Below are positions 18,490 through 48,257 of a DNA stretch of 64,000 nt, one piece after another. The stretch is from Lobosporangium transversale (taxonomy: Eukaryota; Mortierellomycota; Mortierellomycetes; Mortierellales; Mortierellaceae). Position numbers and translations under genes: made by a program. The DNA is taken from NCBI RefSeq assembly GCF_002105155.1, contig NW_019028984.1, positions 124,001 to 188,000 of the forward strand, in the 5' to 3' direction. Position 1 is the first letter of the stretch, and every line of letters begins with the position of its first letter. Below the pieces are notes generated by a model, which did no database searches, was not told the origin of the DNA, and was given only the letters and a program-made list of their open reading frames with translations.

Positions 18490-18549
18490 AAAAAAGAAAA
18501 AAAAATAGCGTAAGTGTGACGTATTTGAATTTATTGTTTCGCATGAAAG

Positions 18550-18556
18550 TATAAAA
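18550..18556 (+). promoter_or_regulatory. TATA box of cassette gene A
   Basis: TATAAAA lies 54 bp before the ATG of gene A. It is kept unchanged in copy 2 (minus strand, near 48124-48130), so the duplicated unit carries its own core promoter. Confidence 0.55.
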
Positions 18557-18609
18557 GACGCGCTTTTCTAAAACTTTGGAGGCAATCCTTCTCAACTTTA
18601 AACATTAAG

Positions 18610-19587
18610 ATGCCACCAAAAAGACAAACACGTCAGGACCAGTCTGAATCTCAGGGTCCATACCCTAACACTCGAACAACTAAAGCCAAGCAGAAAGGCA
18701 TGTCTTAGTGCTTGATGCTTTGACTGATTGTTTTGTTTTGAACTTTTTAGCATGCACAGTTTTTGAGCATCCATTACTAATGTCTTTTACGCCTTTATCT
18801 AGAGAATAAGGATAATCAGATACGAGGTAAGCGGAGAACGGTCTTAAAACTTGAGCAACTTCAACAGGATCTTCAAGTCCTACAGGGTAATGTTGAGGAT
18901 ATTATTACTTATGAAGGCTCAGATCATAAAGAAGTGATAAAAAAAATTGAGCAAGCTGAGAAAAAGCTTAAAGCTTTGTCTACAAAAGGATTCGAGGCCT
19001 TTGCCTCGTATAACGAAGAGATGAATCAGCCATTGGAGCCTGGGAGAATCCGAAAATTGATGAAAAAGTTGCGCGAACTTGCCCGGGATGCAAATTTACA
19101 AAATTTTGAGCCGGTGATCGAGGAGATTGAGAGCGGGTTGAAAACATGTCCTCGATGGCACTCATTCGACATGGTAGTTGAGACTAAATACTATGACCCA
19201 GATGGGAGAGGCGAGGTTAATGCCTGCTATTACATGTGGAAGGATGATACCCCCATATTCCTCGCAGATGCGACTTATTCTTGGCCTGTCCGGGGCGACG
19301 TCTATGGCGAGTATTCTTGCGGATTCACACGAAAAGATTGGGAAGCACTCGAATTCGTTCCAAAGGATTTGCATAAATTCTTACCTAAAGAGTCTATAAG
19401 TACAGAAATGTGCGAGGGATGCAAATCGGAAGGTGATTTATTTGAAGCGTATCAGGCTCATGATAAAAGTGAATGGTTTTTATGGCTTATTGCAGAGCTT
19501 GCAGATGAGGAATCGGATGAGGAATCGACATACTGGAATCTCTTGAAGAAGTTTGTCCCAAAAAGAAAGGCAACAATCCTTGATTAG
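18610..19587 (+). CDS. Cassette gene A, copy 1: coiled-coil protein of unknown function
   Basis: I do not recognise this family. Two exons, 18610-18697 and 18803-19587, give 290 aa. The only intron that keeps the frame open is of GC-AG type (AAAG|GCATGT..CTAG). Residues 1-40 are basic and polar, starting MPPKRQTRQDQ. Residues about 45-130 are charged and heptad-like (VLKLEQLQQDLQVLQGN, KKIEQAEKKLKAL, IRKLMKKLREL), probably a coiled coil. The C-terminal half is globular, with WHSFDMVVETKYYDPDGRG, CYYMWKDDTPIFLAD and EWFLWLIAELADEES, and ends in a basic KKFVPKRKATILD. The paralogue at 47096-48070 is nearly identical except for the segment between FLAD and EALEF and a few N-terminal substitutions. 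No signal peptide or membrane segment is visible. Confidence 0.75.
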
Positions 19588-19676
19588 GACAATCAATATG
19601 TAGTTTCTTTGACTCCGCTGGAGGAGCTTTGATCAAACATTAGCTGAAAAAATCAAGAATCTTCAATATTTTTAGT

Positions 19677-19994
19677 CTATCCAAACATTGAGTTAGATAG
19701 TTCTCTTGAACCTCTTGAATGAATATACGGTTCTAATAGCAAAGAATGTAGAGCTTCGGCTTTGTACAAAACTTCTCGACTGCTTGGTGTTCTCGAGGTT
19801 TCTGCATATGTTTCCTGTTTGAACTCATCAAAATGAGTTTCGATGATATCAATCAAAATGTGTCTGTGATCTGTAGAAGTATGGTGGGAACCACCAGTAT
19901 ACAGGATTGCCAACAAACATCTAAGCGCCTCAGCATTCCCTTTAAGGTTACGATCATCCATAAGTATGGTAAAACGCGCTGTTGAGATGGACAT
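19677..19994 (-). CDS. Cassette gene B, copy 1: 105-aa protein of unknown function
   Basis: A single open frame encodes 105 aa starting MSISTARFTILMDDRNL and ending SRELSNSMFG. It contains EALRCLLAILYTGG, a His/Thr-rich SHHTSTDHRH segment, and HFDEFKQETYAETSRT followed by an amphipathic helix (SREVLYKAEALHSLLLEPY). I recognise no family. The frame, stop codon and surrounding bases are the same as in 46689-47006 as far as I can compare by eye. This suggests either a very recent copy or strong constraint. It is convergent with gene A. An upstream exon is possible, but the ATG at 19994 is the first in-frame one after stop codons. Confidence 0.65.
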   Translation of the reverse strand: MSISTARFTILMDDRNLKGNAEALRCLLAILYTGGSHHTSTDHRHILIDIIETHFDEFKQETYAETSRTPSSREVLYKAEALHSLLLEPYIHSRGSRELSNSMFG

Positions 19995-20609
19995 ATGCCT
20001 TCGTTACAGAGACCCTAGAGGAACGACCGACCAAAGCAAAGATGGGGTTTCTGAACCTATTTTTGCTTGTCATGGATAATCGTGGAACGACAACTCACGA
20101 TGGCTATATGTTTCCAGAACATCTATCCTTAGCTTGAGTGCGATTTGATGTGAATGTCTGTTCTCAAAGGTATCCATATCTCTCCTCCGCTACCCTAATA
20201 TAAATGCGGATGAAACGAAGTCTTACTTCCCTCTAGAAACTTTAATAATAAAGTGAGGCTCGACGTTGCTTCAGACATTGTTGGTTCGGGTGATTTCATA
20301 AATTCATTTTTATAGACATTGCCGTTAGAATGATCAGGTTGGTTCTATATTGACAGAAACCAACGGTAGATAGATGATCGTTTTATAATCGATTGGATTT
20401 GTGAACAAGAATATGAACAGGAATGGATTAAGAGTCGATGCGTGGGGATCCATGTAAACATAAGGGTTTTGATAAGATATTCAGAAGAAAGTGTAAAGAA
20501 TGCGAAATGTTGTTGAGAATTTGTGATTAGACGACGAAAAATCAGAGGGTTCGGTCTCCTGAATAAGAGCTGAGTATGTTGAAATTGCCGCAACATAATC
20601 TACAGAAGG

Positions 20610-21270
20610 GATTGGAAAAAGAGTGACCTTAGTCGATGAGACTCAAGGATGTTTATGAAGAAAACAAAGCGCTAGAGGAGAGAGTCTTAAACGCTGAGAA
20701 AGAGCTTTCATTAGTGATTGATGAGAAGTGATGCTTCAGACAGATTACAATGCTCTCGCTCTTTCCTACAAAAACCTACCCGAGAAATATCTTACTGCCA
20801 CTACCGAGCCTTGTTCAATCCTTTCCTCTCAAGAAACAATGCGATCAATGTGGAAAACATATCTATAGGAACACAGGAATACGACCCAAATCACAGAGCT
20901 TTGTGAATGCACGCGTGAAAATCCCAATATTTGTAGGCGATACTTCAAAACTGAAGAAAGTACAGGATAGCTCTTAAAATATGAGGTATACCGACTGTTC
21001 CGCTGAATCTAATGACAAAGACCTCTTCATTTTTTGCCAATGATATTGTATACTTTGCCTGCACGATAATAAAGACGACCCAATCAGAGATCTACAAGAA
21101 CAGCTTCAAAAAGGCACGATATACTTCAAAGAATATAAAGAAATAATGACAACGGACAAGGGGTTTTTGTTAGCCAATTTTAAGGCAGTCTTCCCTGATG
21201 ACGGTACTTCTGACTATATCCCCCAACGCATCTTTATTTATATTTTTTTAAAGTTGAAGAGGAATCAAAC
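20610..21270 (+). pseudogene. Decayed ORF with coiled-coil start, unknown family
   Basis: From about 20636 the plus strand reads MRLKDVYEENKALEERVLNA then EKELSLVIDEK and a stop. A shifted frame continues MLQTDYNALALSYKNLPEKY to a TAG near 20858, then EHRNTTQITELCECTRENP, then another TAG near 20968. A later piece (from about 21066) reads DNKDDPIRDLQEQLQKGT and FKEYKEIMTTDKGFLLANFK. The pieces have protein-like composition and follow one another, but at least one frame change and two stops break them. I cannot name the family. It lies in the repeat-rich stretch between cassette copy 1 and the aminotransferase gene. Confidence 0.4.
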
Positions 21271-21300
21271 TTATCGATAGAAGAGAATGATACTTCCTAT

Positions 21301-21341
<41 letters not shown>

Positions 21342-21342
21342 C

Positions 21343-22141
21343 TCATTGTTCTTGCATGATAATCTTCTCCAGAGCGTCAAGTGCATAGGTGACAATCCTA
21401 AGATCAGCCTGCGTCCCCATGTGCCCTATTCTAAAGATTGCATTCGCAGTTTGACCATAACTACATAGATATATTAAATCAAGATAAAAAAAATTAAAAA
21501 AAGTAATGGCGTCACGTCGAATATATTCATTATAAAATATCACAGCACAGCATTATCACTTGTGTCTCTCTGCTACTTCGGATAAAACTTTACCTTCCAC
21601 CTAAAAGAACGCCTTCATTACGCAGCTTTTTGTCAAGCTCCTCCCAAGTCGTATTTTCAGGCACACGGATTGCAGTAACAGAAGGTGAGTTCAAAGAGAC
21701 ACGCTCTTGGTCCCACCAGAGCTGCAGACCCATCTTTTTCACACGCTCGCGACAGTACTTGGCGACTTCCTCATGGCGAGCATAAACTTCTTGGACGTGC
21801 TCGTTGTTTTCTCCATAAGTTGCTTTGAGCTGCTCATTGAGCGCATCTATTGCCGACCACAAAGGTGTATAAGGGAATTCCTAGAGATTGGGGAGGAAAT
21901 ACGAAAATACAATGAGTTTGCCTTGATATAATAATAGTAAGTAGTCCAAGGGCAGAAGTATCACTGTGATGAGATATGTTGGCTGCTCGTATCGTTCATT
22001 TACCTTCTCTAAGGTCTTGAATGGTAATAGCGCATCATACCCTATATATGCTACCTTCTTTATCTGCTTCCATGCTTTACTGCTCACTGTGATAACTGCT
22101 AGCGAGGGCTCGCATGAGAATGTCTTTTGGGAACCAACCAA

Positions 22142-22188
<47 letters not shown>

Positions 22189-23135
22189 TACGTTAGGTAA
22201 TAGTATTTGTAAAGGACAGCACCGCTAGTGAAAGTATAGTTTTTCATACGGACAAGGCAATAGAAGTAATGTTTTTCTTTTAAGCGCGTGCAGCCGTACC
22301 AATATCGATGTTCCAGGCAGAAACCTCGATTGGAGTCGCTCCTGCAGAGCTAACTATGTCGACATAGAACAATGCGTCTGCTTTGGAACAAGCTTCACCG
22401 ATCATACGTACCGCTTCCGTGTTCAGCACTCCAGTAGGAGTATCACAATGTACCACTAAATACAAATGACAAACAAGGCAAGTAGCATCGTCAGCAGTCA
22501 CCTCATGCACCTCCTTTTTTTTTAAAAAAAAAAAAAAAAAATTCTCCCTTACTTGTTACGAGGTCTGGTTTCCATTGATGAATAGTTTCCAAAACTTGTT
22601 CGACGTTGACGGGCTGGTCCCATGGGCCTTGGGCAGCCTTGACCTCCACATTTGGATATCTCAGGCTACGCACCATGTCATATATACCATCGCCATACAC
22701 ACCATTACCAATACAGAGAACCCTATACTTATTAGCAAACAAGTCTTTGGAGAAGACGAGATCCCCTTTGGCATCATAATCGTATACCCAGGGTATCAAA
22801 GACTTGAGTCCTCCCCAAAGGCCTGCCATTGCCTCACCAGACATGATCACAATCGATCCATCATCACTATCAGCTTGTTTTTGTTGGTGAGGCTCAAACG
22901 ACAGCAATTTCTGTAGTCTAGAGCAGCACTCGTTGTAGACTTTCAGACACTCAGGCTCCAGGTCTCCACTTCCATAGAATGAGTTGCTATACAAGTCCTT
23001 AAGGCGTTGTGGAACGATAGTTGGCCCTAATTTTTTTTTTTTTTTTTTTTGTGAATCCTGTTAATCTCTTTAAAACAAGGTATTTTTTAACCTTTCCTAA
23101 ATACCTGGAACGAGGTGCGTTCGTGGTTGCTCCAT
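21343..23135 (-). CDS. Serine-pyruvate / alanine-glyoxylate aminotransferase (class V)
   Basis: PLP-dependent enzyme transferring an amino group from alanine or serine to glyoxylate or pyruvate; in fungi it is peroxisomal, mitochondrial or cytosolic. Six exons read from the minus strand: 23105-23135, 22553-23026, 22300-22455, 22004-22143, 21594-21880 and 21343-21460, giving 401 aa, normal for the family. Visible landmarks are the N-terminal LVPGPTIVPQRL, SGEAMAGLWGGLKSL, VHCDTPTGVLNTEAV, FYVDIVSSAGATPIEV and the cofactor lysine in LVGSQK (about K227), followed by the C-terminal FRIGHMG. The exon with the lysine begins after a 3' splice site preceded by about 30 A. No PTS1 is seen at the C terminus (MQEQ) and no clear targeting peptide. 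The gene sits between transposon-derived blocks but appears intact. Confidence 0.9.
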
Positions 23136-23784
23136 GATTTGATTTGAGGGATGAGTAAAGAGTAAAAGAACGAAAAAAGAAAAAATCAACAGATGAAGGA
23201 AAGTCCGAAGGAAATACGTAAAAAATCCTATACGTCAAAGAAAAATGCGTAAGTTCAGTGCATATTAGAATTGATTATTGATCAAGAGTCCCAGAGGGGT
23301 CAGGTCAATCGATGACAATGACAAGGCCTGTAGCGCCACGATATCAGGGACTTGTATTAACTACACGTTTGCACGCGTGTCGTTCATTCAACCCACCTTC
23401 GCATCATATGAATGAAGAGATGATGTTCCTTCGAGCTCTCTACTGGGTGGATAGGCTCCGATTTCACCTCACATCAAAGAATTATAGCCCAAATCCCAAA
23501 TCTGTGTTAAAATCACGCAATAATGGGTGAATTGACTACTGCTTGCAATGATCCAAAATTTAGGTCGCAGAGTACAGAAGGCCAAAATATTAGGCCAAGT
23601 TTTTACCATCGATAGCATAACAAAGCTGACACCAAAGTTTTGCCCACAACGTCTTGCAGCCTGGCTTCGAGTCGCTTTATCTATATAAAGGAGGTATAGG
23701 TTTAATGCATGGCGCATATGAAAATACAAGCGAGGTAAGCAATTTCGGGTTGAACTCAAATGACATTTCAACCTGAAGACTGTA
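23136..23784. other. Intergenic with degenerate coding-like fragments
   Basis: The plus strand around 23545-23685 reads AMIQNLGRRVQKAKILGQVF and FCPQRLAAWLRVALSI before stops. After the Tc1 element, 25122-25198 reads RQVRSIWQERLPSLSTTFGV. The two fragments flank the transposon and may be parts of one older element that it entered. No family can be assigned. Confidence 0.35.
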
Positions 23785-23812
23785 CAGTCACATGAAGAAA
23801 TTTTACGGCAAA
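23785..23812. repeat. Left terminal inverted repeat of the Tc1 element
   Basis: Starts CAGTCACATGAAGAAATT and ends CGGCAAA. It is complementary to 25092-25119 with two mismatches and is preceded by target TA. Confidence 0.92.
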
Positions 23813-23984
23813 TTCTATTTTTTTTGTAATTTTTTGAGCACCCTTGACAAACAGATCATAGACAACATACACAAAGACTTTATCAATCAACATGAAACTT
23901 TAGAATTCGTTAAAGAGGTCGATTTTGTTTCTTTATGGAGGTTTTGAGGATATACTGTATGAAAGGTAAAAGTACTATGTGGGT

Positions 23985-24998
23985 TTAATAATGAGTGTGC
24001 CCACCTTTAGCCTTCCTCACTTCTTTCAGCCTGTTGGGCATGGAATCAACAAGGCTTGCCAGTTTCTCTTGTGGCAAATTATTCCACTCCTTAGTAAGAG
24101 CTACTGCGAGACTGGGGAGATCTCTTGGTCCTCTGGAGCGCTTATCGAGTGCATTAGCGAGAAATGACCATACACGCTCGATGGGGTTTATATCCGGAGA
24201 ACATGCTGGCCAGTCTGGAATCCTAGAGATGTTGTTATTTTCACGCCATTCTTTTGCTATCTTACAAGTATGGACTGGAGCATTATCCTCCATGAGAATG
24301 CCGCCCTCTACTTCAGCCATAAACCTGATTAGTTCAACTTTATATACATCTTCCACAAAACACTGCCCATCTCTACGACCTCGTTTAAATATAACCAACC
24401 GAGACTTTTTGGTTGATGTGAATGCCCCCCAGACCATCAAGGATGTTCTACCACTCTTGAAAGTGGGTATAAGGCAATCGTGGTCGTACTTTTCCTCCGC
24501 CGTACGCCAAACTCTTATCTTACGGAAATTCTCGCCAACTTCAAATGACGATTCATCAGTCCAAACTACCCGACTCCAATCTTCATTGGACCAACTCTCG
24601 TACTTTTTGGCAAAAGCCAGTCGCTTCTTCATATGATCTTCATTTAAGTATGGTTTTGGAACCGCGATCCGGCTGAAGATACCCAGTGAATGCAATATCT
24701 CTGCAACGGTCCTTGTGCACACTTTCTTCGCCAATTGATTGGTGATGTCCTTAAGAGTGGCTCTCCTTTCTCTCTTTGTGCAGCGCACTATGCTCCTGAT
24801 ATCTCTTTCACTCAGTGCTCTTGGTCGTCCTGGGGCGGGGGCGCGAGCGGTGGTACCTCTTTTGTAATATCTTTGAATAATAGTGTAGACCGTTGATCTT
24901 GATACATTACGTTTCAGCGCGATCTCCGCATCCTTCATTCCCGCAAGATGCATTCCAACCATGATAGCTTTATCCTCGATATCCAAATTTAAAGGCAT
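23985..24998 (-). CDS. Tc1/mariner-family DDE transposase
   Basis: An intact 337-aa cut-and-paste transposase. The N-terminal paired-type helix-turn-helix region covers about residues 8-50 (GMKDAEIALKRNVSRSTVYT). It is followed by the GRPR-like linker (APGRPRALSERD) and a second HTH. Catalytic residues are visible: D148 in WTDESSF, D238 in LMEDNAPVH and E274 in SPDINPIERVW. Thirty-five residues separate the last two, so by spacing it is DD35E rather than the classical DD34E of Tc1. No introns, stops or frameshifts. Start chosen at the ATG giving MPLNLDIEDKA. It occupies most of the element bounded by the inverted repeats. Confidence 0.95.
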   Translation of the reverse strand: MPLNLDIEDKAIMVGMHLAGMKDAEIALKRNVSRSTVYTIIQRYYKRGTTARAPAPGRPRALSERDIRSIVRCTKRERRATLKDITNQLAKKVCTRTVAEILHSLGIFSRIAVPKPYLNEDHMKKRLAFAKKYESWSNEDWSRVVWTDESSFEVGENFRKIRVWRTAEEKYDHDCLIPTFKSGRTSLMVWGAFTSTKKSRLVIFKRGRRDGQCFVEDVYKVELIRFMAEVEGGILMEDNAPVHTCKIAKEWRENNNISRIPDWPACSPDINPIERVWSFLANALDKRSRGPRDLPSLAVALTKEWNNLPQEKLASLVDSMPNRLKEVRKAKGGHTHY

Positions 24999-25091
24999 GG
25001 TGGTTTTTTCAAGTTGTTATTGTTGTGAAAAATGAGAAAAAGAAAGAGAGAGGATGATGCTATCTTCGCGTCAATTATTTTCTAAATTTAT

Positions 25092-25119
25092 TTTGCCGTA
25101 TAATTTTTTCATGTGACTG
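25092..25119. repeat. Right terminal inverted repeat of the Tc1 element
   Basis: Mirror of 23785-23812, ending CATGTGACTG and followed by target TA. It is 78 bp or more upstream of the transposase ATG. Confidence 0.92.
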
Positions 25120-25121
25120 TA

Positions 25122-25623
25122 CAACAGGCAAGTTCGATCAATTTGGCAAGAGCGACTCCCATCATTAAGCACCACCTTTGGAGTTCTTCTACTGAGCTGA
25201 ATCATATTTACATCAGGGACCAAGCTGCCGTAAATCAGAGCAGCGATGCTAGTTAGGCTACGTTGGTCGGGAACAAGAATTACTTGTCCATTTTTTGTTG
25301 TTTATCTTTATTGTTGTTTCTGTCTACAACCTTCCTGATCTCTGAAGGTGTCTTCAGGGCACAATTGTTACCTCTGATTTGCTGCCAAAAATCAGGTATT
25401 TTTCTCGACGCCACAAATTGACGTGTCTCGCGGCCATAGTTTATACTTTTCATCTCCATCTTTAATGTCAGCGTTTGCTTCATTGCCATCTACTCTTTTG
25501 TCCTAGACAGCATCCATTTTAGAACATAAGAGATACCCTTCCCCTAGCGATTTCTTTTATTTTATTTTATTTTATTTTTTTTAACTCATTCTCTTCGCTT
25601 CATCAATTATCCTTTCCTCAGCA
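25122..25623. other. Intergenic, promoter region of glucosidase II
   Basis: About 500 bp with no supported gene. The last 80 bp hold a TTTTA repeat and a CT-rich stretch just before the ATG at 25624, likely the core promoter and leader. Confidence 0.45.
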
Positions 25624-28155
25624 ATGAATCCTGCTAGAGGACGCGCACAGCCAACTTCACACTTGTCCCTGAAACGGACTCTTCTCCGCTCTGCCCTTGT
25701 CCTCAGCGCTGCTCTTGCTTGTGTCAGCGCAGTTAAGCGCGAAGACTTTAAGACATGTAGCCAGAGTGGTTTCTGTGCCCGTAACAGAGCTTATGCTGAC
25801 TTGGCAAAGGAAACTCCTAATTGGATGTCGCCTTTCCAGTTGAGCTCTTCTTCATTAAAGCTTCAACGTGGAGTGCTTACGGGGGATTTGATCAATACCC
25901 AGGAAGATACCCAGGCCTCGTCAAAGCTAGGATTGACTTTTGAGCTACATCTGCTGGAAAATGACGCTGTTCGTGTGCGGATCAATGAACGTGATCCTGT
26001 TCATCCCCGATATGATGGTGTACAGGATACAGTTCTGGTCAAGCCTTATGAGTTTGCAAAAGATTCAACTTATCAGCGAGTTGATACGGACAACGATGGC
26101 ATCTTCACCATTCAGTATGGAGCCCAGAATCAAAACACAGTCAAAGTCAGCTCTTCACCTTTCAAGATAGAATTCTTTGTCAATGGTGTTTCAACCGTAG
26201 TATTGAATGATGAGGGTCTCTTACGCTTGGAGCGTTTAAGAGACAAGTCAAAAGAGGGAGGCGATGACACCAAACTAGTCGATCAAGCTCCAGAAGGAGG
26301 TGAAATCAAGATTGAGAAATCTGAACTGGAGCGTAAAATGGAGGAAAATCTTTGGGAAGAAACTTTTAAGGGCTCTACAGATTCTAAACCTAGAGGTATG
26401 ATGATAGCTTTTTCAGAAACATGGATTTATTAATCCGTCGGATGATTGGACGATAGACTAATACGAGAACGATGGATATTATTATCTCAATGACATAGGT
26501 CCCGAGTCCTTTGGTCTCGACATCACATTCTCAGGGATTCAGCATGTCTATGGTGTACCAGAACATGCCTCCAGTCTATCACTCAAGCCAACAAAAGGCG
26601 CTGGCGCGGCCTATAGTGATCCTTATAGGCTATATAACCTGGATGTTTTCGAGTACGAGTTAGATAATCCAATGGCACTCTATGGATCGATTCCCTTTAT
26701 GCTTGGTCATAGCAAGAATAGTACAGCGGCTGTATTCTGGATGAACGCTGCTGAGACATGGGTGGATGTGGAGAAGACCCTGAGTGATGAACAAGACTCT
26801 GGAATCCTCTCTTGGATCAAGGCTAAAAAGGTTGCCCTGAAACCATCGACTAAGACCCATTGGATAAGTGAGGCCGGAGTACTTGATCTTTTTGTATTCT
26901 TGGGTCCTACACATCGTGATATCTTCCATCAGTACACTTCCTTGGTGGGCACAACAGCTCTTCCTCAAGCATTTTCAATTGCATATCATCAGTGTCGCTG
27001 GAATTACAATTCACAACAGGATGTGACTGAAGTTGATGCTGGATTTGATCAGCATGATATCCCGTATGATGTCCTCTGGCTAGATATTGAGCACACGGAT
27101 GGCAAGAGGTACTTTACTTGGGATCATGCTAAGTTCCCCAATCCTGTGGATATGCAACAATCACTTGATGCAAAGGGCAGAAAGATGGTGACGATCATTG
27201 ATCCTCATATCAAGAAGGATGACAACTACTATGTCTCGAAGCAAGGCGCGGAATTGGATATCTACATCAAAAACAAGGATGGAGAATCTTCATTTGAGGG
27301 TTGGTGCTGGCCAGGAAATTCACAATGGATTGATTTTTATAACCCTAAAGCAAGGGACTATTGGGCTTCCCAGTTCGCATATGACAAATATCAAGGTTCG
27401 ACCAAGTCTCTGTTTACATGGAATGATATGAATGAGCCCTCTGTCTTCAGCGGGCCAGAAATCACTATTCCCAAAGACGTGCTTCATTATGGCAACGTAG
27501 AGCATCGCAATGTCCATAACCTTTATGGAACAATGTTTGTAAGTAGAGATAAAAAGAATTTTATCTTAATTTTCGCCTACAATATCCATTTATATTTTAT
27601 GAAGTGCAGCAGTTTATTTTTTTATTTTTTTATTTTTTTTTAAAATAGCATTCAGCTACAGCGCAAGGGTTGACGCAGCGCAATGAGACAAACCAGCGGC
27701 CTTTTGTTCTTTCTCGCGCCTTCTTTGCTGGTACCCAGCGATATGGAGCCATCTGGACAGGTGATAATATGGCGACATGGGAACATTTGGAGGTTGCATC
27801 TCCCATGCTGCTGACAATTGGATTGTCTGGTATTCCATTTTCTGGAGCAGACGTAGGAGGGTTCTTTGGAAACCCTGATGCTGAGTTGTTGACTCGTTGG
27901 TATCAGGCTGGAATCTACTATCCTTTTTTCCGTGCCCATGCACATCTTGACAGTAAGCGTCGAGAACCTTGGCTCTTCGGAGAGCCCTATACATCGCAAA
28001 TTCGTGATGCTATCCGTACTCGCTACTCTTACCTGCCATTCTGGTACACCCTCTTCCATGAAACTAGCGTCGATGGAACTCCCATTATCAGGTAAAATCT
28101 AGTCAAGTGCTTTGAGTATTATTATTCTTATTATTCTTATTATTATTCTTATTAT

Positions 28156-28191
<36 letters not shown>

Positions 28192-28893
28192 TTTTACTAA
28201 GATTTGCAAATTTATATATATAAAAGACCTATGTTCATAGAATTCCCAGAAGATGAAGCAGTCTTCGCCCTGGATAATCAATACATGGTCGGAAATGCAC
28301 TGTTGGTCAAGCCAGTAAGTAAGCCTGGCGTAACCGAGTCAGAGGTTTACTTTGCAGGAAACGAAAAGTGGTTCGACATCAAGAGCTACAAGTGGGAGCA
28401 AGGACCTGGTGTCAAGAAGGTAGCATCGCCTGCGGACAAAATTCCAGTCTATCAGCGTGCTGGAACGATTATCCCCAAGCGTGAACGACCTCGCCGATCC
28501 TCCAAAGCCATGGAAAATGATCCCTTTACGCTTGTTGTTGCGCTGAGCAGTCAAGGCGAGGCATCTGGACGGATTTATCTGGATGATGGGGAGAGCTACG
28601 GATATCAGCAAGGCGATTTTATTTTACGTGAGTTCCGTGTATCTAATGGAAAGCTTTCATCTCATAATCTGAAAACGTTCAACAATAAGCCCTCCGATTT
28701 TGTGCAGAGGATAGGATCACTTCGGATTGAGCGTCTGGTGATTGTTGGTGAGGAAAAGCCGTTGACCAAGGTCACTGTGGGCGATAAATCTGTTGAGTTT
28801 TCTTCACAAAAGATAGTGGATGGTAGTTATGTCTATATTGTGAAGGAGCCAGGAGTGGCCATAGGCGAGGACTTTGAAATCCTTTTAAGATAA
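25624..28893 (+). CDS. Glucosidase II alpha subunit (GH31), ER
   Basis: Removes the two inner alpha-1,3-glucoses from N-glycans in the ER lumen, feeding the calnexin cycle. Four exons: 25624-26395, 26499-27538, 27649-28091 and 28227-28893, giving 973 aa. Residues about 14-37 form a signal peptide ([20 protein letters not shown]), followed by the family's N-terminal [14 protein letters not shown]. The GH31 domain shows [17 protein letters not shown], the nucleophile D (about 567) in [12 protein letters not shown], and the probable acid/base D (about 643) in IWTGDN. It also shows [12 protein letters not shown] and the substrate-site FFRAHAHLD. No HDEL is present, as expected, because the beta subunit retains the complex. 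Length and motifs match GANAB/ROT2/Gls2 rather than lysosomal-type GH31. The Timeless gene starts only 154 bp downstream on the same strand. Confidence 0.95.
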
Positions 28894-29047
28894 TTAGCAC
28901 GAGTAATTTAATTGCGACTATTCAAAACAAATAAAAATAAACAAACAAACAGTCCGCGATACGCGTTCTTCGCAGTGTTGTTATTTTCTTCTCCATTACC
29001 TTTTTTATCTTTCTCTTCGTGTTTCTTTTGAGTCTGGACTTGCAGGG

Positions 29048-36500: not shown

Positions 36501-36567
36501 CCATTTTCACTTTTATTCCATCTTCTGCTTTATTCATACAATATATCTTTCATTTTACGATCTTTAT
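35460..36567. other. Intergenic region, no supported gene
   Basis: About 1.1 kb with scattered short frames that lack domain-like composition, and a T run of about 30 nt at 36461-36492 just beyond the glycosyltransferase 3' end. Nothing else seen. Confidence 0.5.
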
Positions 36568-39500
36568 CTATAGTTTGCTGATCTGTCGCACGACGGGAAT
36601 GTCTAACTGCTCACGCATCGACCCAAACTCGACTTGGATAAGAATTTGGTCACTGCCAGTCCATACTGTCCCTGTCGGGGGCAGATACCGCACATGAGAT
36701 AACGCCAGGTTGAGTTGTGCCATGCTGACAGCTTGTCCGAGATCCATCTGAACTCTTTTCGCACCTGCACCAGACGAGTTCATGACAATGGAGCCTTCCT
36801 TTACCGTAATTAATATAGATGCCTTTTTCAGCGCTAACGCTGCATCATCTTCAAATGGTGAAGATGACTGCTGTTGTTGATCTCCGCGCACAAACACCGC
36901 ATCAATGCCTCTGAATGTACCTGGAACTTTGGCTAACAAAGAGTCCTTGGGCGAGACAGCGATTAGTGTTGATGGCACATGATAGTAAAGAGTCTTGGGC
37001 CCTTGAAGTCTCGAGCTGTTAAAACGATGATTAGTGGATGTTGCTGGGAAGAGATCTAGGCTCCAGATTTTGAATGCTGCAGCAACCACACTTCCTTCTT
37101 CGATTTCTTTTTTGTTAGTGACTTTCCCAAATAAATGAAGGCCAAACCCGTGTTCTTCCAGGCTTAAGAGCTCGTCTTCAGCCTTGTCGGATTTCTGAAT
37201 GGCTGCTACAACCTCCTTCCAGCTGTATGGATATAGCGCCTTCCGAGGCAAAATTTGAAGCCCATTCTTCTCTAGCGAAATCCTGTGTGTCTTTACATAT
37301 GTCGTGAACGCCTTTGGTCCCCCGCAGTTGAAACATTCAGGATCATAATTGGCACTTGTGAAGACATTGTTGGCAATCTGCCTGAACATGGATCTTCCGC
37401 GCCTGAATCGCATTACACCGTTGGCTAGATAGGTGTTCTGAGCATCCAGTGTCCACGACCGATCGCTTTCGGTGTCGGAGATATCAGATCCAATGAATTC
37501 TGTGATCCTATCGCCTGGAGGCCGGATCCAGAGCGCATCTAGGTCCATGTACAAGCCGCCATACTTGTACAGAGCCACCAAACGTAAGTAATCTGCCAAA
37601 TGGACTGGAAAGAATACGCTCTTTTTTCTCCATTCATCCGACTTTTGCAGCCATTCTCGTGTTTCTGGACCAAAGTGCCATCCGTGCTGAAGAAGTAGTT
37701 CCTTGGAAAAAGACAGGATATAGATTTGGTAGCCCTGCCGGGTATAGACCTCAAAGAACTTGGGAGGCAAAGTGTTGGATAGAACTATAAGCACTGCATT
37801 CGGATTGTGGATAAAGAGCGATTCAATCGCCTGATAGTGGCGGGCTTGCCAAGATATTGCGGCGTCTGTTGTCCAGATAGCCCAGTGAAGTCGAGACCAG
37901 TCCTCCGTATCAGAGAAAATGCTACTCTTGTCGCTTAGGATGCCTGGGATGATCCAGTCTGGAGAATTTCCCAGAAGCGGCATGGTGTCTTTGATGTCAA
38001 CTGTCAAACCATCCTCAAGTTCACTAGCTGGTTTCAGGGGTGAAATGCCCATTGCACTATCACAATTCAGTCCGCGGTCTTTCCAATGACCTCCACTACG
38101 ATTATAGCAAGAATAACATGGAGCGCAGCGATCTTGCCGAAATCCTGTGCAGAGTGGCTTCTTATCGATCACGTTCTTATACATGTTATGCATGGATTCT
38201 AAAGACTTGAGTCGTTCACCAAAATGTTTAGCGATCATGTCGTCCTCACACACATCCCATTGTTGAATCCTCCTATCGTGAACTGGCTGGATATTGAAAG
38301 CATGGAGCCAAATACCGATATTTTGATCCTCATATTTAGTAAATATCCGTGGTCCTGGATAAGTCAATAACGTAATAATATCTCGAGAGAGGACATAGAA
38401 GGTGTTGGCAACAAAAGGCGGGTAAATTTCTAATTCACTTTCATCGCTCTTGACTTTGGTATCGGGGCTTGCAATGGGGAGCATATTCCTAGAAATAATT
38501 AAAAACGATTAGAAGAGAGTGATGAAACATTATACCCACTTCTGTAGAAGCGCACAAAGAAATGAGGGTAAAGGATGCATACCGGAAGGTTAATCCTTTC
38601 CAGTGATAATGCAAAGGTCCTTTCATGATGAGTTCGTTCGAGACTGTGTCCCATCTGACGAAGACATCGTCATCAGTCTTACATAAAAAATCAAACTTGA
38701 ATCTGTTACTCCATTCCAATGCCTTGAAAACTTTATAACCGCGGTCTTCCTGTGCGTCGGATACAGGCAGTAACAAAATATCGTCATACTTTTGGAGCTC
38801 AGCACTGATTTTGGCACCCATTTTATTTCTAGCATGGCTGCTAGGGGCCTCGCCCAGGACAAATTTGTAGGTGTAGGCGAATCTCGAGGAGGATGGAGGC
38901 AACAGTTTGAGCGTTGTATTTCTGATTTCCTGCCGCCTCTGGGATGCTTTAGGCGCCCAGGAGGATAAAATGATGATCAAGACCTGGACTTGTGCTGCTC
39001 CAATTACCAACTTTGCATCGCTGGTAGCCGAAATCCCTGCCACTCCACCGGTGGCGATAGCCTCTGCTGTAGATGGTCGCATATTGTTTTGATATAGAAG
39101 CATGATCATGGTGATGAATGATACGATTCCTCCAGGAATCAAGACTGTCCTATAAATCAATGACTTTGCATCGCGCCTCGGTTTAATCTTTGCTTCCAAT
39201 TTGTAGTGCCCTTTGACTCTGAAATGGAGGATTTGGATGATTTGGATAACCGCTAAAATGGCGCAGATAACCATCCAAGGCCAAATTGGCTCCTCGGCAC
39301 CAAAATAGCTGACGAAGAAGACGACTGAGAACCAGAAGAATGTTCCTAATGTGAACAATCGGATCATAGCAGGTCTTGGCTCATAGTGAATGAACCAGCG
39401 ACGGATCAGACTGTTAGAGAGCCAAAAGCTCCAAAGCCCGCCTAGTAGACACTATTAAGAACGGTACCAAATATCAACATACTGTTGGATTTCCCGCAAC

Positions 39501-39970
39501 TTTGCAGCCATTGGCCCGTCCATATCGTTTCACATCAATCTATTGCCTTGAGCAATTAAATGATCATACAACCAAGCGCATGCCTGCTTACCCAGAGGGC
39601 ACCAACGTAGTTGTCGAGAGCAGAGCTCTTCATGGGATCAATTAGCCGGGCACTGCGGTTTTCGGCACTGTGCGCCTGAGCTATGTGGGTGTACACGCCC
39701 CATGCGGCCGGAAACAGACACAGGGCACGCAAGGCTCTACTCAAATGCAAGTACTGAAAGGGCACATCCTGAACATAGTACAAAGGCTGATTAAGCTATT
39801 TTGTTTTTTTAGAAGAATTGATCATTGGATGACAAGAATGAATTCCTGTTAGTTCCTTGTCTAGCTGATTCCTAATAAGTCGCATGATTCTGTAGATGAG
39901 CATTCCAGTGCGAATAAAAATGCTCAGATGAACACATTTTAGTTTCTTCCAAGCCCATTACCGGCGGCAT
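36568..39970 (-). CDS. Multipass GT31-GT32 fusion glycosyltransferase
   Basis: Four exons read from the minus strand: 39962-39970 (MPP only, uncertain), 39592-39786, 38583-39451 and 36568-38488; about 997 aa. The N-terminal 230 residues contain about five or six hydrophobic segments (LFTLGTFFWFSVVFFVSYFG, PWMVICAILAVIQIIQIL, GGIVSFITMIMLLY, VLIIILSSW). A GT31 galactosyltransferase-like domain follows: FVLGEAPSSHARNKM, SDAQEDRGYKV, DxD in FLCKTDDDVFVRWD, then YPPFVANTFYVLS and DQNIGIWL. A GT32/alpha-1,4-type sugar-transferase domain comes next, with FPVHLADYLRLVALYKYGG, DLD in LYMDLDALWIRP, and CFNCGGPKAFTTYV. The C terminus (from about residue 900) looks like a beta-sandwich repeat (ITVKEGSIVMNSSG.. 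LNLALSHVRYLPPTG). Probably Golgi, extending glycans with two sugars, by inference. The start is shared with a 276-bp divergent promoter facing the asparaginase gene. Confidence 0.85.
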
Positions 39971-40246
39971 GATGGATTGCTCCGGATTAGAGAGCGATGC
40001 AATGGGATAGCCAAGAAATGTGATCCGGTATTTTTGACGTGCACTTTAGTTACCAACTGTGTGAAGGTAGTACCAAAAACCCAAAATTTGCCACCGATGT
40101 AATTGCCCTGCCTTCCAAAATTGCTTTTTACGGGGCGTAACTTTACCTTGCATTTTATTCTAATGAAAGTTTGGTACCTCTGTTCTAACCTTTTCTCTTC
40201 TCTGTAACAAACACCACGCTCTTTACTCCGTTCCTCTACTTCTTCC
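39971..40246. promoter_or_regulatory. Divergent promoter between glycosyltransferase and asparaginase
   Basis: A 276-bp gap separates the predicted starts of two genes transcribed away from each other. The asparaginase side ends in a CT-rich leader just before its ATG. No single factor site is identifiable. Confidence 0.4.
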
Positions 40247-43200
40247 ATGCACGACCTTCACAGTCTTGACACTATTGCATTCGAGAATGCTGCTGTCGAT
40301 TACCAATTGTCTCAGTTCATTGATGAGATGCTCCCTTGTGGTATGGTGACACCTTCCCCCCCCTTTTTTTTTAATATTAAAAGGGGTGCAAGAAACTTAC
40401 TAGCCCTACTTACACATATGAACCCTGTTTGATCTACCTATCCAGAGGTCTCTCGAGTGTTGATCATCTACACTGGAGGGACTATCGGTATGAGTAACAG
40501 CAAAATACATGGCTATGTGCCTGTACCAAACTTCCTAGCAGAAACACTCTCCAAGCAATCGCGCTTCCATGATCTACAATCATTGAATACGGTCTTTGGA
40601 CGTCTATCCCGCACAAATTCGAGTGTCAATCTGGATTCCCTAATGGAGCCCTCACTTAATAAACACCTTGATCCAGCCATGAATGGACTTAGCCACCACA
40701 CTATTCCCCCTGAAAAGGCAACGATCAATGGCACATCCTCTGGCGCAAGGTTGCCGCCAAATACACCAGTCAATAAAATCCGTCTTCCCTGTTTCTCACA
40801 CTTGCCCAACAATCAAGGCAGGATCCCTTCACTTATCACCCCACCCTCATTGTATGGCAAGCGAATCCGATACTCAATTTTAGAGTATGATCCTTTATTG
40901 GACTCTTGTAATATGACTATGACAGACTGGGTTCGAATTGCTACTGATATTGAGGCGAACTATGAACTCTATGATGCCTTCATTGTATTACATGGCACTG
41001 ATACCATGGCCTATACAGCCAGTGCACTAAGCTTCATGCTGGAAGACCTTGGGTGAGTGAAATGACTCAAACGATCAACAATGACACCATGTTATATGTA
41101 TTCAACTATGTTTTTTCTCTGGGTTGATGTGTTTATTGCTTGTAGTACTATTATGACTCTGCTCAATTCTATTCTCAGCAACCTTTGTTGAATGGATTGT
41201 GCACTGCGGATTGGATTTTTTGGAATGTCCGTGTACTCTTTCTGTTTGTTTGTGTTTGTTTGTTTATTACAGACTGCTCTTACTTTCCCCGCATTCATCC
41301 TCCAGTATAAAGTTGTTGTTTTTTCACACGGAGGGTTTATAATTATGAGGCCGTCACTGCAACGCTGTATAAACGCTAATTTTATCAACGTTCTTCCCCG
41401 CCTTACTGTTTGCTCTTGCATATGTTTCTTCCATACTCTCTTACTATTTGTTCCCTTGTTTTTTTTTCTTCTTCACAGTAAAACTGTCATCATAACAGGA
41501 TCACAGGTGCCAATCACCGAAATTAGAAACGATGCTATCGACAATCTGCTAGGGGCACTGACTATCGCTGGTCACTTTGTCATTCCCGAAGTGTGTCTAT
41601 ACTTCAGCAACAAACTATTCAGAGGCAATCGATCTTCCAAAATGGATGCTGTCGACTTTAAAGCCTTTGACAGTCCCAACTTGCCACCACTTGTCAAAGT
41701 TGGAATCAATATTGGTAAAGAATGGCATTGTTTACACAGGGCTTTGATAAATCTCTCGTTCTAGGCCTTGTTGTCCCGTTATTGATTACTGTTTAACATT
41801 AATAATAAGCGCCATTTTACTTCTTATAACCTTCCTCCTCCCAAAAATTCGCATTCCGCTCCTTGCTTTGTCTCTTCCTTCATTAGATGTCGATTGGTCC
41901 GAGGTGATCCGCCCTACCTCCCTTTCACGATTTCGAGCCCACAAGTCTATGAACCCCCATGTAGCCAGTTTGCGTCTCTTCCCAGGCATAACCGAGACAA
42001 CCATAAGGACGTTCTTGACCCCTCCCATCCAGGGCGTTGTCCTCGAAACCTATGGAGCAGGAAACGCGCCATCTACACGATCTGACTTGATTGCTGCCTT
42101 GAAAGAGGCATGTGATCGTGGTGTGGTCATTGTGAATTGTACACAATGTATGTTGAATCATAAGTAGATCTAGAAGAATATTTATTTAATCCCTCGCACG
42201 GTCGCGAAGTAAGTATTTAATACTTTTTATTTTTATCTGAAATACAAACGACAGGCAAGCGAGGGCTGGTGACTGACGCATACCAAACTGGCAAGGTTCT
42301 ATATAATGCCGGTGTCATCCCTGGAAATGACATGACGCCTGAATGCGCACTCACCAAGCTCTCATACTTGCTTGGTCACGATTTGCCCATCCCAACAATC
42401 CGTGAGATGATGACCAAGAACCTGCGCGGCGAATTGACAGTTATCCAACCCCGTACACGATTCAGCTACATTAATCGCACGCATGCGTTGCTGCAACTGC
42501 TTCTAAGAGCTGCCTCCAATGGGATGTTGACCAATACACCGAAAATTGTGGGAAGAATTGAGTCTGCACAAAGGGCCCAGGAACTCGCTGAGGATCCGAC
42601 CCCACAGCAGCAGGATGTCCCGCAAATAGAAAAGCAGATCAAGGAAATCAAGATTGATGTGGAATCAGACCGTAAGAAGCCTATCTTTACAACATCTGGC
42701 TCTGAATCTGATGAAGATTCAGACAGTCCAATACATAGTGATAATGATCAAGTTATCCCTAAAGCTCCAGAGTCACAGCCAGCGGTAGGCCCTCTGTCAA
42801 CCGAGGATCAACGATGGATCGAAAGAAGTCTGTACCCTCTTTTGATCTGCGGTGCTGCTGGAAGTGGTGATGTAGAGGGTCTGACAAAGCTCTGGGATGT
42901 CACGACGGACGGTCAGAGCGGTTACAGCAAAGTCTCACAGAACCTTGGGCCTGGAGAAAACGATACTGGGTCCTTGGGCGGTAGTGCCGTCACAGGCGGC
43001 GATGGCATTATCTTGAACCAAGGTGACTGGGAGGGCCGCTCTCCTCTACATATCGCATGCAGTGCTGGTCACTTGGAGGTGGTCCGATTCTTGCTGAGTC
43101 ATGGTGCGTCGATTCATGTACGCGATCGTCTTAATCATACTCCACTCTATGATGCTGTGACACGTGGAGACTCGTCCGAGATTGTGAAGATACTCCGCGA

Positions 43201-43507
43201 TACGGGAGCTCATTTCAATCATTCTGAAGTGTTAGATTTGGGCTGGAAGCTGATGATTGCAGCAACAGAAGGGAATCTGGACCGTGTCAAGCTGATTGCT
43301 GAGGCTGGCTATGATTTAAATCGCTCACTCTTTGATAGAAGAACTGTGATGCACATTGTCGCAGCAGAACATCGCCACAGTTTGATCGAGTATCTGTTGA
43401 AACATTATCCAGAGATCAAGTTGGATCTCAAAGACCGTCTGGGACGAACTTGTGTGGATGAAGCTGGCCAATGTGACGCTTGCAGAAACCTTTTCCTTGT
43501 GAGGTGA
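40247..43507 (+). CDS. Cytosolic-type L-asparaginase with ankyrin repeats
   Basis: Hydrolyses L-asparagine to aspartate and ammonia; the architecture matches mammalian ASPG (60-kDa lysophospholipase). Five exons: 40247-40340, 40446-41052, 41479-41714, 41887-42147 and 42255-43507, giving 816 aa. Catalytic motif 1 is [11 protein letters not shown] and motif 2 is [18 protein letters not shown]. Then come [44 protein letters not shown] and the [20 protein letters not shown] segment. A linker with an acidic stretch ([10 protein letters not shown]) leads to three or four ankyrin repeats ([55 protein letters not shown]). A Ser/Asn/Pro-rich insert of about 95 aa follows motif 1. No signal peptide. 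It is convergent with the ArfGAP gene, whose stop is about 300 bp away. Confidence 0.94.
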
Positions 43508-43803
43508 GACGCATTCATTCCTGTAAATATTCAGTTATAATAGCATACAATAATAAAAATAACTACTAGTGACCAGCGTAGAACATACAGGAATATACTC
43601 TTCTCATCCCGCATAGCCTTCTCCATAAAGAAGTATACAAACATAGCCATATGAAGTCTCTATCAACTAGGAAAGCATTTTTTTGGGCATTAAGTGGTTT
43701 TTATTAAAACACGTAAGATAAATCAACATCTGATTGCTTTTAACTGCCCTCCTAAAACCAGCAAACGCATCGAGGGTTTTACAAGGATTGGGATGTATAT
43801 GCT

Positions 43804-45296
43804 CTAGTTCCAAGTCAGGTCGCCAAAAGCACTGAGCCAAGGATTAGGTAAACAAACAAATAAAGGAAAGAGAGAAGAGTTGGTATATTGTAATAAGAGT
43901 ACAAAGTAATCATAAACAAGACATTTTTTTGTTTTTTACTAACCTGTTTTTCCTGTTCTGCGCCGATGAGCTGGTTACGGGCGATGGAGTTGCGCCCGCA
44001 ATCATGCTGAACAAGTCTCCTCCAGGGGGAACATTGCTAGTATTTGTGTTGATATTGCTGTTAGTATTGTTGTTAGAGCTGTTGAATCCACTGACATTAT
44101 TATGTCCGAAGGTAGATCCTGGTTTATTGAGCCCATTCGCAGCCTGAATACCAAATCCTGGATTGGATCCTGTGCTATTAAACGTATCAAAACCAGAGAA
44201 TGAAGATGGAGCACCAGATGCTACCTGTAATGTGGCTCCAAAGGCACTATTATTGCCCCAATGATTTTGTTGCGGCTGTGGTTGCGATTGGTGGAAGTGT
44301 GGCTGTTGAAACTGTGGTTGTTGTGGCTGAGAAGATTGTTGTCCAATTCCAAATGTTTTCATGCTCTGAAGCTGTCCAAACTGTCCAAATTGCCCAGGCT
44401 GTTGCTGTTGTTGCTGCGTGCTAATATTGAGCCCCGTAGAATGGCGGTTTGATCCAGAAGATTGGTTTCCATATAGTGACATAATTGAGTTTTTCCAGTC
44501 TGTGTTTGCAGCTTTGGCTGGCGCCGAAGGACTAGATGCTGTAGTCGGTGCTACCTGTGATGGCTGACTATTGGCTGATGGTGATGATGATAAAGTTGAG
44601 GGACTCATCAATGAGAAAAGGTCTTGGGCTGTAGAGCTTTGAGTCTGTAGTTGTTGCTGAGATTGAACTGACTGGATACTATTTCTCTTGAATTGTGGCT
44701 GTTGTGTCACAGGGTTCGTTGGTACAGGGTCATTGAACCCGAAGAGGTCTTCTTGTGCAGCCGTAGGTTGTGAAGCAGTTGGTGATGGATGCTGTTGACC
44801 AATGGAGAATAAATCAGCGCCCTGAACTCCTCCCAAGACAGACGTTGGTCGTTTAGAGATAGAGGAGCGCGCAGAGGCGTTACCGGGTGGAGGAGCAATG
44901 ATTCCAAACGATTCAGATGACCCTGATAATCGATTAACTCTGTGACGACTTCCAGTCTTTCCTTGCTTTATTCATTTTTTTTTAAAAAAAAAAATAAAAT
45001 AAAATAACATAAAATAAAATGAAAAACTGTACTGTCAATGGGCCTGAGGTTATTTATCAAGTCTTGGACTGTTGCTTACCAAATCCAAAAGCAAGGCTTC
45101 ATCGACTGGGCCCAACTCAATGGGGTCGGGTATTGATTCTTTGTTTGCAAATTGCTTCCATTCATATTTTGAGCGGATCCATTGATCAATTCCCGATGTA
45201 CTAAATAGAAAGAGAGAAAAAAAAAAAGTGATTTTTCAAGTTTTTGCTTTTTTTTTTTTTTTTTTTTTTTTTTTGGAGGACATACATACATGAATG

Positions 45297-45349
<53 letters not shown>

Positions 45350-45644
45350 GGACACTTACTTCTCGTTTGGAATATTTGCCTCTGGTAATCTTGCTTCCCA
45401 GTACTTATTAACCTTTCCGTTTCCCCATTTAATCATGTTTTCGACCTGCTCTGCGGTCCAGCTATCGAGATCAACCGATTTTACTGTTATATATATATAA
45501 AGGCTGTTAGGGAAGTCCATGATAGAAGGTATTTCTACTCAATATTGTTGATTCCTGTTACCTTTGCTGATATGTGTACCCATGGAACGATGAACACCTG
45601 AACATCGGATGCACATAAAGCATCCGATATTGAAGCTAGAACAG

Positions 45645-45679
<35 letters not shown>

Positions 45680-46021
45680 CAAACAAGAAGAGGGGTACAT
45701 GGAAACAAGTGGTTAGTCATTGAACAGAAAGCTAGGCATAGCATGGTAGAGTATGGAATATCTTTTTTTTTTTTTTTCTTCATACCTCGCCCATCGAGGG
45801 TCTAAGGGACAAGAAGGAAAAAAACTAATCAGTCGTTGCACAGATATTTCTTTCAATTTAGTTCAAAAGAAAATAATTATAAAGAAGCTTACACAAGCCT
45901 AACCTTTCTTGCGACAATCGACACAGAACTTGTTTTCTGGTTTCTGTAACAATGTCTTCAGAATGCGTGTATGTTTGTCATTGGTAGTCTTGTCTGCAGT
46001 ACGCGCACTTCTTGTGGCCAT
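43804..46021 (-). CDS. ArfGAP with C-terminal DLF motifs
   Basis: GTPase-activating protein for Arf in vesicle traffic (SMAP/Age2-like). Seven exons from the minus strand: 45904-46021, 45786-45801 (16-nt micro-exon), 45562-45635, 45360-45483, 45080-45200, 43944-44965 and 43804-43831; 500 aa. The zinc finger is canonical CX2CX16CX2CX4R: C33, C36, C53, C56 and R61 ([24 protein letters not shown]), followed by [16 protein letters not shown]. The C-terminal 330 aa are Gln/Asn/Ser/Pro-rich with repeated DLF motifs ([32 protein letters not shown]), typical of clathrin/adaptor-binding tails. The last exon supplies SAFGDLTWN. The final intron is supported by phase and GT-AG only; the alternative is read-through to a stop at 43910. 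Confidence 0.9.
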
Positions 46022-46452
46022 GACGAGCTTTTGTGATGCAAGGTTTTATGTATGTATTGCTTTTGTTTTTTTTTCCGTTGTCGTGACAATGTGAGGGCTA
46101 ATGGGATGAAATCATGAAAAGATTAGAAAGAGGAAAAGAAGGAAAAGGAAAGTTGAAAGTAAAAAAAAAATAGTTGAAAGGAGGCAGAGGCACAGCCGAC
46201 GTGCATTTAGAGAGCCTTTGCATATGCCTCTTTCTCCTATTTCCTAATAAATTTGCCTTACACGCGATCGACGTTGATTATCGTCATTTTTTTGTTCTTC
46301 AAGGCAACTGAACTTGTCCTCTGCGCATTGCTTCATTGTCTTATTTTCACCATTAGGCTTTAAACTGCGGTTTCTGCAGCTTGCTACCAATTTTATGCTT
46401 TTGCGCTTTGCCCATCTTACTCAAACTGAGGCGGTGAATACTGTTAGCAACA
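46022..46452. other. Promoter region of the ArfGAP gene
   Basis: A 430-bp spacer between the ArfGAP start and the end of cassette copy 2. It contains purine-rich and A-rich tracts and no supported gene. Confidence 0.4.
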
Positions 46453-46688
46453 CGTTTCATCGAAAGATTGAAAACGCATTTATGGTAGAATAGCGGAGGA
46501 GAGATATGGATACCTTTGAGAACAGACATTCACACGAAACCGCACTCAAGGTGAGAATGGATCTTCCGGAAACATATAGCCATCGTGAGTTGTCGTTCCA
46601 CGATTATCCATGACAAGCAAAAATAGGTTCAGAAACCCCATCTTTGCTTTGCTCGGTCGTTCCTCTAGGGTCTCTGTAACGAAGGCAT

Positions 46689-47006
46689 ATGTCCATCTCA
46701 ACAGCGCGTTTTACCATACTTATGGATGATCGTAACCTTAAAGGGAATGCTGAGGCGCTTAGATGTTTGTTGGCAATCCTGTATACTGGTGGTTCCCACC
46801 ATACTTCTACAGATCACAGACACATTTTGATTGATATCATCGAAACTCATTTTGATGAGTTCAAACAGGAAACATATGCAGAAACCTCGAGAACACCAAG
46901 CAGTCGAGAAGTTTTGTACAAAGCCGAAGCTCTACATTCTTTGCTATTAGAACCGTATATTCATTCAAGAGGTTCAAGAGAACTATCTAACTCAATGTTT
47001 GGATAG
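46689..47006 (+). CDS. Cassette gene B, copy 2: 105-aa protein of unknown function
   Basis: The 105-aa product is the same residue for residue as the one encoded at 19677-19994. The underlying bases also appear identical by eye, while flanking cassette DNA differs slightly. No recognised domain. It contains ILYTGGSHHTSTDHRH and FDEFKQETYAETSRT. It is convergent with gene A copy 2, with stop codons about 89 bp apart. Confidence 0.65.
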   Translation: MSISTARFTILMDDRNLKGNAEALRCLLAILYTGGSHHTSTDHRHILIDIIETHFDEFKQETYAETSRTPSSREVLYKAEALHSLLLEPYIHSRGSRELSNSMFG

Positions 47007-47095
47007 ACTAAAAATATTGAAGATTCTTGATTTTTTCAGCTAATGTTTGATCAAAGCTCCTCCAGTGGAGTCAAAGAAACTACATATTGATTGTC

Positions 47096-48070
47096 CTAAT
47101 CAAGGATTGTTGCCTTTCTTTTTGGGACAAACTTCTTCAAGAGATTCCAGTATGCCGGTTCCGCATCGTCATCGTCCGATTCCTCATCTGCAAGCTCTGT
47201 AATAAGCCATAAAAACCATTCACTTTTATCATGAGCCTGATACGCTTCAAATAAATCACCTTCCGATTTGCGTCCCTTGCACATTTCTGTACTTATAGGC
47301 TCTTCAGGTATGAATTTATGCAAATCCTTTGGAGCGAATTCGAGTGCTTCCATATACCATGTGAATCCGCGATAGAGCTCGCAGTCCCGGCCAGGAAAAT
47401 AACAATCCACATCTGCGAGGAATATGGGGGTATCATCCTTCCACATGTAATAGCAGGCATTAACCTTGCCTCTCCCATCTGGCTCATAGTATTTAGTCTC
47501 AACTACCATGTCGTATGAGTGCCATCGAGGACATGTTTTCAACCCGCTCTCAATCTCCTCGATCACCGGCTCAAAATTTTGTAAATTTGCATCCCGGGCA
47601 AGTTCGCGCAACTTTTTCATCAATTTTCGGATCCTCTCAGGCTCCAATGGCTGATTCATCTCTTCGTCATACGAGGCAAAGGCCTCGAATCCTTTTGTAG
47701 ACAAAGCTTTAAGCTTTTTCTCAGCTTGCTCAATTTTTTTTATCACTTCTTTATGATCTGAGCCTTCATGAGTAATAATATCCTCAACATTACCCTGTAG
47801 AACTTGAAGATCCTGTTGAAGTTGCTCAAGTTTTAAGACCGCTCCCTGCTTGCCCCGTATCTGATTATCCTTATTTTCTAGATAAAGGTGTAAAAGACAT
47901 TAGTAATGGATGCTCAAAAACTGTGCATGCTAAAAAGTTCAAAACAAAACAATCAGTCAAAGCATCAAGCACTAAGACATGCCTTTCTGCTTGGCTTTAA
48001 TTGTTCGAGTGTCAGGGCATGGACCCTGAGATTCAGACTGGTCCTGACGTGTTTGTCTTTCTGGTGACAT
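47096..48070 (-). CDS. Cassette gene A, copy 2: coiled-coil protein of unknown function
   Basis: Two exons from the minus strand, 47983-48070 and 47096-47877, with the same GC-AG intron as copy 1, give 289 aa. The N terminus differs by a few substitutions (MSPERQTRQDQ, GKQGA for GKRRT). The coiled-coil region is almost unchanged. The segment after FLAD reads VDCYFPGRDCELYRGFTWYM, against ATYSWPVRGDVYGEYSCGF plus TRKDW in copy 1. Downstream sequence is again nearly identical apart from an acidic patch (SDDDDAEPAYWN). Function unknown. Both copies remain open, which argues that both make protein. Confidence 0.75.
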
Positions 48071-48257
48071 CTTAATGTTTAAAGTTGAGAAGGATTGCCT
48101 CCAAAGTTTTAGAAAAGCGCGTCTTTTATACTTTCATGCGAAACACGAACACGAAGTTAGGGCATTTCAATAAATTCAAATACGTCACACTCACGCTTTT
48201 TTTTTTTTGTAGAGGAAATAGAGACCCGAGCAGTGCATTAAAAACTAAGAGACAAGC

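Follow-up and report, generated by a model that had tools for sequence, protein, structure and literature searches.

A probable inverted segmental duplication of a Mortierellaceae-restricted gene in Lobosporangium transversale, with signs of gene conversion between the copies

The window analysed here is a stretch of 64,000 nucleotides from contig NW_019028984.1 (positions 124,001 to 188,000, forward strand) of Lobosporangium transversale, a member of the Mortierellaceae whose assembled genome comprises 42.7 Mb in 127 contigs. It contains two copies of a unit of about 1.7 kb, lying 28 kb apart in opposite orientation, each with an intron-containing gene that we call gene 1. The explanation that we favor, at a probability of roughly three in four, is a segmental duplication, at the level of DNA, of a gene for which relatives were detected in the Mortierellaceae alone, followed by divergence of the copies with partial gene conversion between them. 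Three possibilities had been raised in the initial annotation of this stretch, namely a non-autonomous mobile unit, a selfish or defensive gene pair and a duplicated host locus. The last of these fits best, whereas the mobile unit is disfavored by the low number of copies and the makeup of their ends and coding region, and the gene pair by the lack of a proven second gene.

The inverted duplicate itself was borne out by comparison of the window with its own sequence, which recovered it in three inverted pieces (760, 693 and 183 nt, 95-97% identity), and by pairwise alignment, which joins these pieces into one. The repeat extends over 18507-20217 (plus strand) and 46453-48197 (minus strand), with 1635 of 1749 alignment columns identical, 61 substitutions and 53 gap columns. 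The limits first given for the right copy stand, while the left end needed correction, as homology stops near 20217 and not at 20227; homology is least secure for the final 9 bases of the unit, which a 13-base gap separates from the rest. The units do end sharply against unrelated DNA, as had been claimed, the similarity between their flanks being no better than that of shuffled sequences (P 0.53 and 0.20, 200 shuffles each). The features of the two units, as obtained from pairwise alignment, junction comparison and, for the right copy, genome search, are as follows.

18507-20217, plus strand: left copy of the duplicated unit
46453-48197, minus strand: right copy of the unit, inverted
18550-18556, plus strand: TATA-like box (TATAAAA), 60 bases upstream of the ATG in sequence that the right copy shares unchanged; putative promoter element
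18610-18697, plus strand: gene 1, left copy, exon 1 with the start ATG; spliced protein identical to P0001 (BCR41DRAFT_347582)
18803-19587, plus strand: gene 1, left copy, exon 2, after a GC-AG intron at 18698-18802; 290 amino acids (aa) in all
47983-48070, minus strand: gene 1, right copy, exon 1
47096-47877, minus strand: gene 1, right copy, exon 2, intron at 47878-47982; 289 aa in all
19273-19349, plus strand: hypervariable block of gene 1, with 13 substitutions in 77 bases and frame-keeping indels
19618-20030: difference-free tract of 413 columns, read from alignment and permutation as a probable gene-conversion tract

One supported gene is carried by the unit, consisting of two exons, a GC-AG intron and a TATA-like box. 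The annotation of two convergent open reading frames (ORFs) with their own TATA promoter thus holds for the forward one, which is a real gene, albeit a spliced one, and for the presence of the box, whose role as a promoter is putative; the reverse frame, of 105 aa, is discussed below. The spliced product of the left copy is identical to the public database protein BCR41DRAFT_347582 from L. transversale, and gene 1 is also present in a second assembly of this species (protein P0002, BX616_010869). Proteins are predicted to be made from both copies. That the 105-nt intron is kept in both copies favors copying at the DNA level.

Relatives of gene 1 were found only in the Mortierellaceae. Profile search places them in the same family as gene 1, and the motifs SGLKTCP and WFLWL are invariant across five aligned proteins; the relatives share 31-35% identity with the left protein. 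Entomortierella lignicola encodes two paralogues with consecutive locus tags, whose gene models start later and lack the basic N-terminal tail. In the Haplosporangium relative (P0003) a second IESGLKxCPRW-like motif is seen near the N-terminus (residues ~38-48), which suggests, from the protein sequence, that the family may contain an internal repeat. Profile searches and structure prediction had been proposed as checks on both proteins. Pfam gave only matches below the cut-off for the two gene 1 copies and each of the five family members, and no match for the reverse ORF; no toxin or antidote family was matched by either gene 1 copy or the reverse ORF. Predicted structures were too poor for a fold search, with a mean predicted local distance difference test (pLDDT) score of 52.0 for gene 1 (three sequences) and 50.7 for the E. 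lignicola relative (six sequences). A profile search of solved structures gave a single match, to a designed binder (E 0.3), which we dismissed. No match was obtained among phages (217-aa ORF as query) or plasmids, and among the titles of 17 papers that mention L. transversale none was found that names gene 1.

The differences between the two copies are distributed unevenly. Along the left copy, substitutions amount to 1/103 at 18507-18609 (plus a 24-base indel), 5/88 in exon 1, 1/105 in the intron, 15/470 in the first part of exon 2, 13/77 in the hypervariable block (plus indels), 10/238 in the last part of exon 2, 2/528 at 19588-20115 and 13/93 at the diverged far edge (20116-20208). Exons outside the block therefore differ by 3-6%, and one edge by 14%. 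The coding gaps measure 3, 12, 4/1 and 9 bases, and both gene 1 frames stay open. Outside the block the differences are clumped: their dispersion is 2.26, whereas 5000 random placements averaged 0.94 and never reached that value. None of 10000 permutations of the columns produced an identical run of 413 columns; with the hypervariable block and the diverged far edge removed, 3 of 10000 did. The observed run probably results from gene conversion between the copies. No third source of the hypervariable block was found in the genome.

Additional evidence for exchange comes from P0002, a mosaic in which left-type and right-type sequence alternate. At the 46 columns where the copies differ, it agrees with the left protein at 22, with the right at 24 and with neither at none, in five runs (14 left, 23 right, 1 left, 1 right, 7 left). 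The long right-like run, residues 186-227, takes in the hypervariable block, and the sequence preceding it is left-like. Comparison with three outgroups is informative at two positions: at 110 the outgroups have E and the left protein and P0002 have G, while at 223 the outgroups have L and the right protein and P0002 have I. Both shared states look derived on this alignment, and the two positions together are hard to explain without recombination or parallel change. The mosaic could represent gene conversion or a recombinant allele, or else a chimeric contig. Taken together, the identical run and the mosaic point to gene conversion, and the case they make is good, if not decisive. Inversion between the two copies, which the initial annotation had envisaged, is plausible because the copies seem to exchange sequence.

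Several observations weigh against a duplication followed by partial conversion. P0002 could be a chimera, as it comes from a fragmented assembly, lies on a contig of 11,479 bases and is known only as a protein. The intron and the 5' region are nearly identical beside diverged exons, so that several conversion tracts would be needed. The proportions of nonsynonymous (pN) and synonymous (pS) differences are of similar size, 0.033 and 0.039 over 261 codons with the block and a 9-base insertion left out, which also fits decay of one copy. A first estimate gave nonsynonymous divergence (dN) of 0.050 and synonymous divergence (dS) of 0.039; given the stricter codon set we do not claim positive selection on gene 1, and comparison of the two proteins gives no clear sign of either constraint or positive selection. 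Synonymous change at first seemed to exceed noncoding change (6/~155 versus 3/696, P 0.002, without the diverged far edge), but noncoding differences become 16/789 with that edge included (P 0.24), so we draw no argument from it.

The surroundings of the units bear on how the second copy may have arisen, and the following features were identified there.

18370-18488: palindromic hAT-like miniature inverted-repeat transposable element (MITE), 119 bp, separated from the left unit by 18 bp; this copy lacks a target-site duplication
48267-48338, minus strand: tRNA-Arg(ACG) gene, 69 bp beyond the right unit on its 5' side
14974-15438: Mcl1-type exon, upstream of the left unit
22283-22555: class V aminotransferase exon, downstream of the left unit
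45359-45538 and 45902-46045: ArfGAP exons by the right unit, the latter below the cut-off

The exons for a class V aminotransferase and an ArfGAP protein fit the labels AGXT and ArfGAP given earlier to the neighboring genes. Both copies have an A-run at their 5' boundary with respect to the gene strand, and it makes up most of the 18 bases between the MITE and the left unit. In the genome the stretch to the right of the left copy (20209-21280) has no match other than itself. Six further matches were obtained with the 303 bases that flank the right copy on its 5' side, and these cover the tRNA gene plus a few adjoining bases. Breakage or fork stalling is known to occur at palindromes and at tRNA genes. 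A 9-bp minisatellite (GCAGGTGGA) lies to the left of the left copy at 17985-18110, and an ORF for a Tc1/mariner-type transposase (337 aa, HTH_Tnp_Tc3_2 and DDE_3 domains) lies between the copies at 23985-24998 (minus strand).

The MITE, whose ends are CAGAGGGTC, belongs to a family found at 40 places or more in the genome (40 out of 88 candidates were scored), repeat counts throughout being lower bounds. Of these places 30 loci were examined, and 12 were dropped, leaving 18 with both terminal motifs; 9 of the 20 rows from these 18 loci have 8-bp target-site duplications with at most one mismatch. At one locus (L016) a duplication with a one-base shift was recognized by eye, and five (L029, L030, L031, L033 and L034) appear to derive from a single insertion that was duplicated along with its flanking sequence. 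The absence of a duplication at 18370-18488 is not striking, as other copies also lack one. Short terminal inverted repeats, 8-bp target-site duplications and many copies are features that we take to be typical of hAT MITEs; no transposase was linked to the family. C48:146301-391769 and C50:146138-391626 contain four MITE copies each, arranged as mirror images at almost the same intervals; this arrangement suggests that a large segment is duplicated, or split by haplotype, in the assembly.

We next consider other origins of the repeat. It is improbable that the unit is a non-autonomous mobile element of low copy number that has gene 1 as cargo and inserts next to tRNA genes or MITEs. Such an element would account for the sharp edges, for the A-run on the same edge of both copies, for the positions close to the tRNA gene and the MITE, and for a diverged fragment on another contig (C64:40238-40403, 165 bp, 81% identical). 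However, searches of the genome with the unit DNA, the gene 1 protein, the Haplosporangium relative and the reverse ORF returned two full copies and this one fragment. The initial annotation had regarded a total of only two copies, with homology continuing as an ordinary segmental duplication in related species, as counting against its proposal, and two copies is the outcome as far as the search of this genome reaches. No terminal inverted repeats pair the ends of the unit, and no target-site duplication was seen when the junction sequences were read by eye. A retrocopy would be expected to have lost the intron and to end in a 3' A-tail; here the intron is kept in both copies and the A-run is 5' on the gene strand. 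We consequently regard both a transposon and a retrocopy as unlikely. An assembly artefact, to which near-identical nearby copies are in general prone, is extremely unlikely, given the 61 substitutions and the indels between copies, the unrelated flanks of each and the presence of gene 1 in the second assembly.

Two further possibilities concern function. Gene 1 and the reverse ORF (19677-19994, minus strand; right counterpart 46689-47006, plus strand) might form a selfish or toxin-antitoxin-like pair, which we consider very unlikely. Both frames are open in both copies, as originally observed, but for the reverse ORF this is not independent evidence because the stretch is identical between the copies. 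In a post hoc test on the 3' half, 1.25% of the sequences from 2000 dinucleotide shuffles contained an ATG-initiated ORF of at least this length. In the C64 fragment the frame stays open over residues 4-35, and the 31 codons compared carry 4 synonymous and 5 nonsynonymous changes (pN 0.07, pS 0.18, one-sided P 0.15); yet the start-codon stretch is deleted there, and the changes fall at codon positions 1, 2 and 3 in the numbers 1, 4 and 4. None of 11 candidate homologues, limited to proteins 0.55-1.75 times its length, reached E <= 10, and the pair matches no toxin or antidote family. The evidence for the reverse ORF as a gene is thus mixed, and judged from these comparisons it is unproven. Alternatively, the copies could be cassettes of a fast-diversifying pair, for instance in allorecognition or other recognition, that exchange the hypervariable block by conversion. 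The frame-keeping indels of the block, its right-like state in P0002 after left-like sequence and the consecutive E. lignicola paralogues agree with this, but a single other assembly is concerned, in which chimerism is possible, pN and pS outside the block show no positive selection, and no Pfam domain exceeds the cut-off. We therefore regard it as unlikely, and slightly more so the specific proposal of a two-cassette diversification system in which a Mortierellaceae-specific protein has its hypervariable block shuffled between loci by conversion.

For the favored segmental duplication, the course of events would be that a 1.7-kb piece of chromosome, with the upstream region and an intact, intron-containing gene 1, was copied to a second site in inverted orientation. 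The left copy may have arisen through break repair beside the hAT-like MITE, and insertion at such break-prone sites may have involved repair with template switching at the A-runs. The copies would have diverged afterwards, part of the 3' half being held identical by conversion between them. The result resembles known dispersed inverted segmental duplications with interlocus gene conversion in its copying as DNA, upstream region and intron included, in its abrupt edges, high identity and low copy number, and in its patchwork of identical and diverged tracts. It differs from the usual case in the compact hypervariable block, whose indels keep the frame and which resembles the right copy in the second assembly, and in the closeness of one edge to a hAT-like MITE (18 bp) and of the other to a tRNA gene (69 bp). 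As an inverted duplication of a lineage-specific gene it is largely ordinary. It illustrates that a striking inverted "cassette" can turn out to be a plain duplicate gene, and, in an early-diverging fungus, it provides a compact setting in which to measure conversion between inverted copies and to ask whether a defined variable block is exchanged by it.
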